A stretch of DNA of 64,000 bases from Dysidea avara (Eukaryota; Porifera; Demospongiae; Dictyoceratida; Dysideidae), in the NCBI RefSeq assembly GCF_963678975.1, contig NC_089279.1, positions 27,390,004-27,454,003 of the forward strand, given 5' to 3'. This document shows positions 10,420-60,103 of the stretch, in pieces. Position 1 is the stretch's first letter. Each line of letters begins with the position of its first letter. Under the pieces are notes generated by a model. It worked only from the letters and a program-made list of their open reading frames with translations. It was not told the origin of the DNA and made no database searches. Both the position numbers and the translations under genes were made by a program.

Positions 10420-21177
<10,758 letters not shown>

Positions 21178-22391: not shown

Positions 22392-23459
22392 CTAGTTAAT
22401 TTTTACAGGTGTTCCATCATTGACCATAAGAACAACAAAATCAAATTCTTCCTTTTCATCAAGATGCACACTGTCTTGATGTTCAATAACTAACTCAACC
22501 CTGTAGCCATGTGGTGAGTGGTCACGTTTGCCTCTTTTACCACTTAAGCGCAAAAGGTAAGGGTGGGGAGTGAACAGTAAAGAAGCACTATGAACACTGT
22601 TGTCTCGAAGATCCTTGTAGTTAAGTAATTCCGGATGATACAGTTGTGATGAAGCAAATGTGATGACAAATGGTACTCGGTCACACAGTGTATCCACTTC
22701 ATATGGCTGGTAAGGTCCATGGGAATCTGATGGCATACGAGGTGGGCAAAAATCCATACCTTTACTTTGAAAGTCCACAAGCTTTCTTAAGCATTGATCA
22801 CAGGCATCTAACTTCGAGAAGAAATGAAATCCGATACAATCCAAAACCCTCTTTTCAGGAACTTTAGTTCGTTGCTTTGTTTGCTTTAAGAAATTTATCC
22901 ATAATGACTTTTGTGTTTGCTGATCCAGAAGGAAGCTTATTGCCCTTTCTTCTGTATGATCACCTTTGCATGGCACATGTTTAAACTTTCGTTTTTCTTT
23001 ATCAACTGTCATGATTTCATCTATGGTGTGTCCTGTTTCCCAAACACAAGAAAATTCATCACTCTCGAATTCATTACAAGTTTTGACAGGAACTTGTACA
23101 GCTCTACACATAATTTTGCCCTTTCTCCGATAGCTCCAGATTCCAAAAAAACAAACACCCAAATAATTAGTCTTTTCTTGTTTCTGCGCAAACACGTGAT
23201 CACGAATGGCTTCGAAGACTTTTCCTTTGGTGATTGATCGATCACCACAGTATTTTACAGACTTAGCATAAACCCCAATCACTTGGTTAGGATTTCTATT
23301 GGCTTTTGATTGGACTCTATAAAAGAAACCAGGCTTGATTTCTTCAGAAACTCGATCTGGTGGAAGCTTGCTGATGTCAGCAATTGTCTTGGCAGTTGTA
23401 CGATTTTTGCTCAAGTGATGATGGTCTTCAATCTCATCTTCAACAATTTTACAAGCCAT
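22392..23459 (-). CDS. Deaminase-fold-like protein, intronless, 355 aa
   Basis: A single open frame, started here at the first ATG (MACKIVEDE). The middle of the protein carries a pattern typical of zinc-dependent cytidine-deaminase-like domains. HTEERAI gives His168 and the would-be catalytic Glu170, and 50 residues later KLDACDQCLRKL gives Cys220 and Cys223. In that fold the His and two Cys hold zinc and the Glu activates water. A beta-strand-like segment (VLDCIGFHFFS) precedes the CxxC as expected, and PFVITFASS could be the next strand. The rest is unfamiliar, with no signal peptide or membrane segment. Absence of introns next to intron-rich genes fits a retrocopy or lateral gain from bacterial deaminase families, but neither is shown. 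It could instead be an unrelated zinc-binding protein. Confidence 0.6.
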   Translation of the reverse strand: MACKIVEDEIEDHHHLSKNRTTAKTIADISKLPPDRVSEEIKPGFFYRVQSKANRNPNQVIGVYAKSVKYCGDRSITKGKVFEAIRDHVFAQKQEKTNYLGVCFFGIWSYRRKGKIMCRAVQVPVKTCNEFESDEFSCVWETGHTIDEIMTVDKEKRKFKHVPCKGDHTEERAISFLLDQQTQKSLWINFLKQTKQRTKVPEKRVLDCIGFHFFSKLDACDQCLRKLVDFQSKGMDFCPPRMPSDSHGPYQPYEVDTLCDRVPFVITFASSQLYHPELLNYKDLRDNSVHSASLLFTPHPYLLRLSGKRGKRDHSPHGYRVELVIEHQDSVHLDEKEEFDFVVLMVNDGTPVKIN

Positions 23460-42223: not shown

Positions 42224-43084
42224 ATGTATAGGATTTGTACTAGTAGCAATGAAAGGAGGCCTACTAGTGATGCAGAGATTGACGAGATACTTAAAATAGC
42301 AAGCGATGGCGATATCACCGCCTTGGTAGAGTTGTCGTTTACAAATGAAGTGGATGTTACTACCGCCTGCAATACAGATGGAGTAACAACGCTACATGAA
42401 GCGGCGAGAAGCGGCAACAGTAAGTTAGTAAAGATGTTAATAGATGCCAAAAGTGTTGTTGACAGCAAAGACAGTCATGGGACAACCCCACTTCATATAG
42501 CAGCCACAAATGGTTATGTAAGAGTAGTCAAGGAACTGGTAAAAGCAGGTGCTGCAATAGATGCTAGGGATAACTTTGGAGTTACACCACTACATGTTGC
42601 AGCAAAGAATGGACACAAGAAAGCCATCAAGGTGCTAGTACAAGCAAATGCTCTAGTGGACACAGAGGATGTATATGGCTGGACACCACTTGCTTCAGCC
42701 GTTGTCAATGACAGCAGTGATATCATTAAGTACTTGGTCAAAGATGCTGGTGCTGATCGTAGTAAAGTTAAGTATCAATTTCAAAACAGGATAGGAGTGT
42801 TAATAGGAGAGATAGAACCAAGTGTTGAGAGACTCAATGAGAGACAACAACAGGATACATCACCTGCACAAGCTCCATGTCAAGAGAACGTTCATCTTAG
42901 AAGTAGTAATGTTGCAATTGAAGAACTAACCCCTAAAAGCCAGGAAACAACCACTACAAATGAGCCAGATAGAGATATTGAGCACAGGGTTGAAACCAGT
43001 GGATATCACGTATCATTGAAGAATACCACTGATATTTGCCCTCCAGCTGAAGAAATGAAACTAGGCTGTTGTGTCATTGTTTAA
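42224..43084 (+). CDS. Ankyrin-repeat protein with C-terminal CaaX box, intronless
   Basis: An open frame of 286 residues from the first ATG. Four ankyrin repeats run from about residue 52 to 180 (DGVTTLHEAARSG, HGTTPLHIAATNG, FGVTPLHVAAKNG, YGWTPLASAVVN), each with the TPLH-type turn and helix pairs. Residues 20-45 may be a partial first repeat. A polar, probably disordered linker (200-275) leads to the end KLGCCVIV. The last four residues CVIV fit a CaaX box, so the cysteine is expected to be prenylated, and the cysteine before it could be palmitoylated. This predicts a protein held on a membrane that binds partners through the ankyrin repeats. No signal peptide or membrane helix. Partner unknown. 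Confidence 0.87.
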   Translation: MYRICTSSNERRPTSDAEIDEILKIASDGDITALVELSFTNEVDVTTACNTDGVTTLHEAARSGNSKLVKMLIDAKSVVDSKDSHGTTPLHIAATNGYVRVVKELVKAGAAIDARDNFGVTPLHVAAKNGHKKAIKVLVQANALVDTEDVYGWTPLASAVVNDSSDIIKYLVKDAGADRSKVKYQFQNRIGVLIGEIEPSVERLNERQQQDTSPAQAPCQENVHLRSSNVAIEELTPKSQETTTTNEPDRDIEHRVETSGYHVSLKNTTDICPPAEEMKLGCCVIV

Positions 43085-49420: not shown

Positions 49421-52400
49421 TCAGATCACAGTAGGCATCAAGTCCTCTGTGCTTCCCTTCTTTTCAGAATCTGCTGATGGTTCTGATGTGACCTGATCAT
49501 TAGATTTGTCTGCATCAGTTCCCTAGTGTACAATAAATGTGCCATACAGTTATGTGACCTAATTTGGGAAAACCATCGATCTACACACATCAATAGATTA
49601 TGAGATATGCTATTTTAAACATTGCAATCCACTATAGTTTGGGAAAGACAAAAGATACGAGTTTGAATTTTCACCGTGAATGCAGCCAACCATAGTGTTT
49701 AAAGCAAGCTGTTGATATAACCATGATTTTGAGCACCTTTTTTTCACGACGGTATCTGTAACACAAGCACGTCATCATGGGTGGTGGTGGCTGGGGTGAT
49801 GGCGGGGGTGGTGGTGGGTGGGTTATTGATATATGAACAGAAAATGGCCGAGTGGGTGATATGGTGTCTCCAGTCTTAATATTGGGCTCTCAAGACCACC
49901 TGTGCCACTGAAAAACACAGAAATGTATGTAGAAAATATCTGGACAACTGTCCAAGGCTGCTCATGTTTCTAGTCTCGTGTTTCAGCTTGCCAGTGACAT
50001 TACAAGGTTCCAGAGCATTCCCAGTGGCTGGCACATCTCTAGAAATCCACTCGCGAAAAGCAGTCTGATCAAACCAGAGGCATGGCTGTGGTGCAAATGT
50101 GAGGGCTATCCATTCATGGTGAAAAGTGAACTTCACTGGTGTGTGCGTAGATCGACAATTTTCAAAATTTTGGTCACATATACTATTACATATTTCAGAG
50201 ACATATTTACCAGATTAATAGTGGTCATTTCTGTCGGGCTAGTTGGAGCACTTTCAGCTGATTTTAATGGAGTGTAGTCTAAATCGTTATCATCAGCAGA
50301 CACTCCATGAGACTTAACTATTTTAGTCCTCATACGACGGCAGATTACCCCAATCAACTATACACATAATATCATTATACAAACATTAATATTGCATCAT
50401 CATTTTACCAGGCCACAAGTAGCACAACATCCAATACCCAATAATCCTATAACTGCAAGAATTAATACTCCTGCCCACTCTTCTAGTCCTAGGATGTTAT
50501 TAGAGGTTGAGCTGGAAAAGATTCCATAGGCAAGATTAGCACTCTCATACTAGATAAATGTAAAACAACAACCTATACATGTCAACTGATATCATAATAC
50601 AGTCACTCACCATCAAAAGTGTGTCATTACTCGTTAGTTCATTAAACAGCTGTCTTGTTAAAGTTTGTGATGCACGTGGTGTTGAGGTTATTTGCTCCAA
50701 GACAAATACTTGCACTAAACAAGTATCACTTCCAACAGTAGAGAAATGTGTGCATACTTTAATTGTGTTTGAGCTCATCACAAGATCTTGTAAAACTGTA
50801 TTAAGTGTCATATTAATGTCACAATAGAGATCATTGCTGGTGTCACATATAACTTCAATTTCAATGTGCACAGTAGTAGCTGGTTTAAAGAACTGTCGAC
50901 ACTGCTGATCACTTTCTTCACATCTACTAACTGAAACAATGATCATAAAATGTTTGTGCGACAATACACACTGTCAGATATCACTCTCTTTATCCAAGCA
51001 TCTTAGTTCTAAACAGTAGTTGGGATCTTCAAAACACAGGATTCTATGGAATTTAGCAACCTGAAGGTGCTGTGTTGTGGCACCCTCACTATGCTTGGTG
51101 TTACTACAGGGCCTGAGGGTCACAAAATTATGTAGAACCCTGTGTTTTAAAGTCTAACTAATTTAGACAACAACTCATTATACCTTGACAACTGCTTGTA
51201 AACAAGAAAGATAGCAGAAACAGACACATTACAACTCTCTCTTATTCAATGGCTGTTATTTTAAATGTCCATGCATGCATTGCCAATGTTACAGGCATGT
51301 AATTAAAATGTTTTACATAGCTTCAGAGTGAGCTTCAGAGCATGTAGGACATGATTGTGGCATTATGAGATTTAGAGACCCACGATTTCCATCAAATTTC
51401 ATCATTGAACTTGTTGAAGTTTAATTCTTAAATCAAACTACAATTAAACTAGCATACTCTGACAGCTATAATTGTCACATTGTAATATAATCCACCCAAA
51501 AACAGCCAAGCTGTGAAAAAGGTGTGGCCTTAAAAGGCCCAGGGAGTGATTGACTGTTCTATTAGAGTAGATCTCAACTGTTTGGTGGAAGCCTAGAATT
51601 ATAGTATTCAGAGTGTGGTAGCTCATCAATGGTTGAAGCTACCTACGTGCACCAAATTTTGCAAGTTTTATACCAATTTTTTGCCTTCTAGAACATCCAC
51701 AGTACAAGTAGCCAACAACTACATTTCCTGCCATTTTTTCTTAAGTATGACTATCTGGCAAGCTCCATTAGGGGTGGTGGGTGGGAAAAGAGTTATTTTA
51801 AATGAAACACAATTACAGAGAGATAGGCTCAGTTATGGGCTAGACCAGTAGCAGTAAAAGATCACCGATAGGTGTGTAGAATCTGTATGTGGCTAGCTGT
51901 CTTTTAACATGGCTTTCAGTTGCTTTTAAACTCAACAATTAGCTGGTTGAGAGTTTATTTTCAAAGAGGCTTCCAGAAACTCCCCTTGGTATGCCTCTGA
52001 CTTCATTTTAGTGGTGGAACATGAAATCTGCTGTCATGGGCGACAATACCGATTTTCCTAGACCCAGTTATATAGCTAACTTTGTAATGACATGGAAGTT
52101 TAAATCATCAATTCGCATGCTAAAACTAGCTCCAGAACACACATTTGTAACTAATTATGAACTGTTGAAACCCAGTATGTTATATAGTGTGACTATTATA
52201 AGCAATGATCAAGGCTATGTACATCATGACTTGATGGTTATATCCATATTAGCTATCTATGTAGACAACAACAGCCTTTAGACCTCCAGTTTAGCTCTGT
52301 CTGCTTTGAAGGTAATTGTGCAAGGGACAGTAAGTCATGCACTTTCACCACTCATACACTGTAAATGTCAATGTACAACTGGTATTGTCATCCATACTCA

Positions 52401-59170: not shown

Positions 59171-60103
59171 TTATAAGCCAAGCTGCTTGATTACGGATAA
59201 TCTGTGCCCCAATGAATCCACTATGTATCCATCCTTCGCATTTTCTGATTTCCATCTACCATGGCACTTGAATAACCTGTCGGGGACTCCAGCATTAGCC
59301 GCCTTGGTAGCTCCACCAACTCTCATACTGTGTAGCCCAAAATCCTTTGGATCATAACCCAGATTTTTAAGTTTCTTTTTAAACAGCCCATGAAGGCAGG
59401 TGTAACTTATGCTGCCCAACTCACACAACCTGTCCCCCAGCTTGGTCTTACATATTGGGCGGAACAAAAACCTTTGATCCCTCCACGAGATCTGCATTCT
59501 CCTCATGTATTCTTCCAGCTTGCCGACTGGGCAGGTGGCTGAGCCACATCTGGCAATCACCACTTCCTCTCCTTTTCTCGATTGGTCTCCCTTACTATGT
59601 GGAATATGTAGCACTATGTACTCTTCGTGGACAGAGATATAGCACGGCCGAATATTCACCAGTTCACTGAACCTCAAAAACCCTGCAAAAGATAACAGGC
59701 ATGCAGTGGTAAGCCTTAAATCAGTTAGGGTGCCACTCATCTTTGCATCTTCCACCATCTGCTGCAGCATAGCTACCATCACAGGAGCTTTTTTGACAAC
59801 AGGTTTAGCCAAAGATCTCTGAAGACCCTCTAGGATAGCTTTAACGAAGGGGGAGGATGATGGAGAGACTAAGCCTGCTGTGGAGTGTACCCATGCTAGG
59901 GAATTGCATGCTTCCTCCACTGCTGATTTTGAGTCAACTGTACCAGCCAGGTGTTGCAAGTAGAGGCCAACATGGTGCTCTTTGGCTGGCATTCCATACC
60001 TTTTAGCCCAGCTCTTCTGCTGTTTGTATGCCGTAAAGTATTTCTTCATTGTGGAGTTTGTTCTACTATGCAGGATAGTGTTTGGGAGCTTAGTACTGTA
60101 CAA
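59171..60103 (-). mobile_element. Tyrosine recombinase of a DIRS-like element
   Basis: An open frame of about 290-310 residues (first ATG near 60049) belongs to the tyrosine recombinase family. The expected active-site residues are present: Arg in FAGFLRFSEL, the HSMR box, the HGRW box and a late Tyr in DGYIVDS. The wording HSMRVGGATKAANAGVPDRL resembles recombinases carried by DIRS-type elements in cnidarians, sponges and fish. The frame looks whole. No reverse transcriptase or other element part is visible in the window, and a foldback transposon begins right at its upstream side. Age looks modest because the frame is intact. Confidence 0.72.

Follow-up and report, generated by a model that had tools for sequence, protein, structure and literature searches.

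A candidate zinc-dependent deaminase encoded by a small family of single-frame animal genes

The gene and its surroundings

The window, a stretch of 64,000 nucleotides of DNA, contains on its minus strand a candidate zinc deaminase gene (22392–23459), recognised by an intact single frame of 355 codons and by paralogues elsewhere in the genome. The frame runs from an ATG at 23459 to a stop at 22394–22392 with no internal stops, and the coordinates and frame proposed in an earlier note on this DNA were accepted on checking. Nine further open codons precede the ATG, the nearest upstream in-frame stop starting 30 bases before it, with GACATGG as the start context. Given how often stops are observed, only 6e-7 open runs of this length are expected in the whole window, so the frame is not a chance run. 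Its GC content at the three codon positions (0.50/0.34/0.32) resembles that of two recognisable frames in the window, one hydroxyisobutyrate-dehydrogenase-like (HIBADH-like; 0.53/0.45/0.34) and the other ankyrin (Ank; 0.53/0.41/0.32), while a third window frame, at 46 kb, gives 0.49/0.48/0.26. The CpG observed/expected ratio is 0.48 in the gene versus 0.40 in the window.

The encoded protein has no membrane helix, the highest mean hydropathy over 19 residues being 0.79, which bears out the earlier observation that a membrane segment is lacking; nor is a signal peptide apparent by hydropathy, with no segment hydrophobic enough to form one. Five features of the protein recur in the analysis below. 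Residues 168–170 (22950–22958, minus strand) form an HTE motif, containing a candidate zinc ligand (His168) and a candidate catalytic residue (Glu170), and residues 220–223 (22791–22802, minus strand) form a CDQC motif, containing two further candidate zinc ligands (Cys220 and Cys223). The translation confirms both motifs at the positions first noted, the separation described as about 50 residues amounts to 52 from H168 to C220, and alanine indeed stands before C220 in place of the usual proline. Immediately upstream of CDQC lies a hydrophobic, putatively strand-forming segment (residues 205–219, VLDCIGFHFFSKLDA; 22803–22847, minus strand), which holds Cys208 and His212 within the stretch VLDCIGFHFFS and agrees with the earlier description of a strand-like segment before the CxxC. 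Two further conserved blocks emerge from a three-way alignment with the paralogues: one N-terminal (residues 38–69, SEExKxGFFYR...IGVYAxSV; 23253–23348, minus strand) and one C-terminal (residues 327–355, HQ......E...F...VL.VN.G.PVK; 22395–22481, minus strand).

The remainder of the window holds several features of separate interest. A tandem array of a 121-base unit in 7.7 copies, also called at a period of 246 bases, occupies 17931–18866, and 16027–16209 is a perfect (CA)n repeat of 91.5 dinucleotide units. A 310-residue frame on the minus strand (59174–60103) matches phage integrase, a tyrosine recombinase, with an E-value of 0.0036, below the curated cut-off, and is possibly a mobile-element recombinase. 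Domains such as VWD with C8, together with the size of the assembly, are the basis on which the genome is taken to be that of an animal. A possible second deaminase in the window, at 50548–50973 (APOBEC4_like, E 0.095), was rejected since its translation carries no HxE...CxxC.

A family of dispersed copies

Searching the window's own assembly (550.8 Mb in 108 contigs) with the 355-residue protein returned five places: the gene itself, one intact paralogue each on contigs C4 and C2, a short match on contig C8, and a chance match (E 3.9). The C4 paralogue, 360 residues as listed from an upstream TTG, is about 42% identical to the window protein, and the C2 paralogue, of 324 residues, about 43%; overall, the two show 42–44% identity to it and 40% to one another. 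Queries with the C4 and C2 members recovered only the same three intact copies, together with one chance match (E 8.7). Three is therefore a lower bound, because the genome search scores only the best candidates and reads them exon by exon.

All three intact copies, situated on three contigs, are single open frames. As both paralogues remain open over their alignable length, the single-exon structure put forward earlier is supported, and the gene is apparently intronless, as predicted from genomic frames. According to the three-way alignment, invariance extends to 90 of the 355 positions in the window protein, among them H168, T169, E170, L217, D218, A219, C220, D221, C223 and L224. The CxxC reads CDQC, CDEC and CDQC across the copies, in each case after an alanine. 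Variation of the motif residues among homologues had been named in the earlier note as evidence against a deaminase, and H168, E170, C220 and C223 proved to be invariant in all three copies.

Pairwise dN/dS among the copies is below 1 (0.29, 0.34 and 0.30, with broad bootstrap ranges of 0.00–0.44, 0.16–0.50 and 0.00–0.46, respectively), and dS, at 1.6–2.0, is near saturation. Ratios of about 0.3 suggest that the family has been under purifying selection.

The short match lies about 97 kb to the right of the gene (C8:27510414–27510494, corresponding to L004:1501–1581 and to about 1915–1995 of L008). At the protein level it is marginal (E 0.075), but at the DNA level 61 of its bases align with the motif region at 87% identity (E 5e-15). 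The strand-like segment is preserved, S and Y replace the two cysteines, and the enclosing frame is 68 codons long; we read it as a probable decayed relic of the family. Some 0.8 kb from it is a frame very similar, as judged by eye, to the ankyrin frame of the window (42224–43084), so that the ankyrin gene seems to have been locally duplicated. Near the C2 copy, at a distance of about 1.1 kb, is a short open frame (L003:3525–3788) that looks reverse transcriptase-like by eye (DPLGPLLF, YLDDG) but has no Pfam match at E-values up to 0.1.

These observations bear on the origin of the gene, which the earlier note had suggested might be laterally gained. Recent lateral gain finds no support: the composition is host-like, the copies are scattered over three contigs and nearly saturated at synonymous sites, and searches of prokaryotic, phage, plasmid and viral sequences turned up no relative. 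Scans of bacterial, archaeal and viral contigs through exact short peptides, a requirement that restricts them to close relatives, returned no relative, and tblastn against phage and plasmid records returned none either, save one plasmid match at E 9, which is chance. Scans of that reach leave room for a distant bacterial origin of the family. A transposon or retrocopy origin was also considered: 11 inverted-repeat pairs of 14–23 bases occur within the 5 kb surrounding the gene, and none frames it convincingly. When window positions 19–27 kb were compared with the paralogue loci, similarity was limited to the coding part, the best flank match having an E-value of 0.19. The dispersal of single-frame copies suggests either old retroposition or an intronless ancestor.

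Motif tests and profile searches

Zinc-dependent deaminases carry [H/C]xE in a helix and a downstream CxxC, usually after proline, within a five-stranded sheet with helices. In the window protein, the HxE...CxxC motif alone is weak evidence of such a fold, because a loose pattern, HxE-x(15–90)-CxxC, arises in 6.0% of 20,000 composition-matched shuffles of its 355 residues; allowing [HC]xE raises this to 8.9% of 20,000 shuffles, while the stricter HxE...PCxxC, which the protein lacks, occurs in 0.4% of the same number.

The surroundings of the two motifs were compared with deaminase templates while the motif letters were held fixed. Around CDQC (21 residues, two cysteines fixed), the match to lamprey PmCDA1 was reached by 0.1% of 20,000 draws, and those to the N- and C-terminal domains of APOBEC3G by 0.8% and 1.6% of 20,000, respectively; with TadA (20 residues, cysteines fixed) the figure was 5.6%, again of 20,000. 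The surroundings of HTE matched no deaminase template beyond the fixed letters (p 0.10–0.86). The anchored test thus favours CDQC only, not HTE. With an unfiltered profile built from five AID/APOBEC sequences, the HxE part of the profile fell on residues 151–172 of the window protein and the PCxxC part on 213–232, in the right order and with insignificant scores; in the C2 protein the same profile picked up the CxxC segment alone, and in the C4 protein nothing.

Smith-Waterman profile alignment gave z-scores of 2.6, 1.7, 1.0 and 1.8 against four of six deaminase templates (TadA, 1.8), and of 1.7 (a dehydrogenase), -0.7, -0.5, -0.1 and -0.9 for five unrelated window proteins; since an unrelated control reaches 1.7, PmCDA1 is alone in standing out, and does so only slightly. 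When the motif residues were fixed, the observed scores against the four templates were reached by 3, 15, 23 and 14 of 150 shuffles. Alignment by hhalign to an APOBEC alignment and to TadA was null (P 0.42 and 0.64), the aligned regions lying outside the motifs.

No deaminase match came from Pfam or NCBIfam with any of the three proteins, or from PADLOC or PHROGs with the window protein. The sole return from the Pfam scan of the three members was PglZ, in one member (E 0.14, over residues 56–89; 0.016 with the N-terminal 99 residues alone), and as it is absent from the paralogues it was put down to chance. The conserved blocks at 38–69 and 327–355 matched no known domain in Pfam in any of the three copies. 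Against solved structures, the window protein gave three chance-level matches (E 0.19–0.56), none of them a deaminase, and the family profile gave no match. A single-sequence AlphaFold2 model of the protein was unusable, with a mean pLDDT of 34.9 and no residue at or above 50.

The genome was also searched with profiles of established deaminases. The dCMP_cyt_deam_1 profile (PF00383) found three places over its cut-off, one of them with internal stops and none belonging to the family, which indicates that the genome profile search works. SNAD4 (PF18750) returned two places and APOBEC4_like (PF18774) one, all below cut-off and outside the family, in searches that could miss genes split by introns. 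These matches, to SNAD4 and APOBEC4_like on contig C13 and to SNAD4 on contig C6 (E 0.7–0.9), were set aside, as no frame with HxE...CxxC was seen around either place.

Interpretation and comparison with known deaminases

On balance, these data make it somewhat probable that the family consists of divergent, non-secreted nucleic-acid deaminases that depend on zinc. An undescribed animal deaminase, as suggested in the earlier note, thus remains the leading, if unproven, reading: the four motif residues vary in none of the three intact copies, but no search ties the family to a known deaminase. Also in its favour count the local match around CDQC to PmCDA1 and APOBEC3G, the high conservation of residues 201–220, the low dN/dS and the relic, which has lost the cysteines yet keeps the adjoining segment; against it stand the alanine before CxxC and the longer spacing from H to C. 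By analogy with the AID/APOBECs, His168, Cys220 and Cys223 would together hold one zinc ion and Glu170 would shuttle a proton, so that a zinc-bound water could attack C4 of cytosine or C6 of adenine, with release of ammonia. According to passages of one source (PMC8201067), it is the glutamate of HxE in AID/APOBECs that serves as proton donor, while the histidine and two cysteines hold the zinc. One may guess that the family acts on nucleic acids and serves innate defence, against viruses or transposons, because its best-matching motif is that of AID/APOBEC and because it does not match PF00383.

The main rival is a structural zinc protein with no enzymatic activity, perhaps an adaptor or nucleic-acid binder, in which C208-x3-H212-x7-C220-x2-C223 would bind one zinc ion and HTE would be coincidental. 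The bin of residues 201–220, around CDQC, is the most conserved stretch of 20 residues in the alignment (13 of 20 invariant), and the four proposed ligands, all invariant in three of three copies, belong to this most conserved part; HTE, moreover, does no better than chance against deaminase templates once its letters are fixed. Nevertheless, H168 and E170 are invariant too, although only 3 of 16 histidines and 4 of 23 glutamates are (compared with 6 of 12 cysteines), and joint invariance of H168, E170, C220 and C223 would be expected by chance in about 0.7% of cases, at rates taken after seeing the alignment. C208 and H212 also sit in a hydrophobic, strand-like segment, which would make a poor zinc-finger loop, and profile searches with the family members gave no zinc-finger match. 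We consider a structural zinc site unlikely. The conserved blocks at 38–69 and 327–355 are explained neither by this reading nor by that of a deaminase.

A deaminase fold that does not actively mutate nucleic acids, being either an inactive, binding-only member or a deaminase of small molecules or nucleotides, appears less likely still. It is consistent with the alanine that replaces the usual proline before CxxC in all copies, and with the extra N- and C-terminal blocks, whose conservation suggests other functions. However, every intact copy retains all four putative catalytic residues, as an enzyme that had lost its activity would not usually be expected to do, and the family is unlike PF00383, the profile that holds the deaminases of nucleotide metabolism. 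Pure coincidence of the motif, in an unrelated animal protein that evolves fairly fast and lacks a metal site, is the least probable reading and is thought very unlikely, as H, E, C and C are jointly invariant across three copies that are only 40–44% identical, even if 6.0% of shuffles contain the loose motif and profile or fold support is lacking.

Within the favoured interpretation as a nucleic-acid deaminase, a more specific proposal can be made tentatively: that the copies represent an undescribed clade of animal polynucleotide deaminases, marked by an Ala-CxxC variant, an unusually long stretch from H to C and three dispersed single-frame copies, which may edit viruses or transposons as AID/APOBECs do elsewhere. 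Its setting would be a genome in which neither a SNAD4 nor an APOBEC4-like gene rises over cut-off. Antibody diversification and antiviral mutation both depend on AID/APOBEC enzymes, whose early history in animals has been little sampled. Should deaminase fold and function both hold true, the family would add a clade missed by the profile libraries searched here, the DNA/RNA mutator repertoire of early-branching animals would appear undercounted, and a cytosine or adenine editor with a new sequence preference might be obtained. Were the deaminase reading to fail, a conserved protein family with no match in those libraries would remain.

Among known families tested by profile, none claims the family. 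No description of it occurs among the literature matches listed, nor in passages of PMC5956068 and PMC8195603; the main survey (Krishnan 2018) lies outside this scope and may list the family under another name. The deaminase domains of bacterial polymorphic toxins, some of them very divergent relatives of AID/APOBEC and a proposed source of animal deaminases according to passages of PMC3482391, are comparable in their high divergence and related motifs, whereas here the gene stands alone, with no toxin architecture and no match in Pfam or NCBIfam.

The dCMP/cytidine and tRNA deaminases (PF00383; TadA/ADAT2) share the zinc-site pattern of HxE and CxxC, but the similarity to TadA is not usefully above that of the unrelated control (z of 1.8 against 1.7). 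SNAD4 (PF18750), an AID/APOBEC-like clade, likewise has a deaminase-type motif of the sort seen in the window protein; as far as passages of PMC11004436 and PMC8201067 relate, sponges are the only group in which it has been identified, and a signal peptide is present in SNADs, in contrast to the protein described here, in which none is apparent, and PF18750 reaches its cut-off nowhere in the genome.

The AID/APOBEC family (PF08210; APOBEC4_like, PF18774) differs from the window protein in several respects: the latter yields no profile match, has alanine instead of proline before CxxC, separates H from C by 52 residues as against 31 in PmCDA1, and carries 167 residues ahead of HxE together with an extra conserved C-terminal block. 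There are also likenesses to AID/APOBEC. HxE and CxxC follow in the same order, no signal peptide is apparent, and the surroundings of CxxC match locally to both PmCDA1 and APOBEC3G. APOBEC4 in particular is reported, in passages of PMC8201067, to be without introns, a feature paralleled by the single-frame copies of the family presented here.
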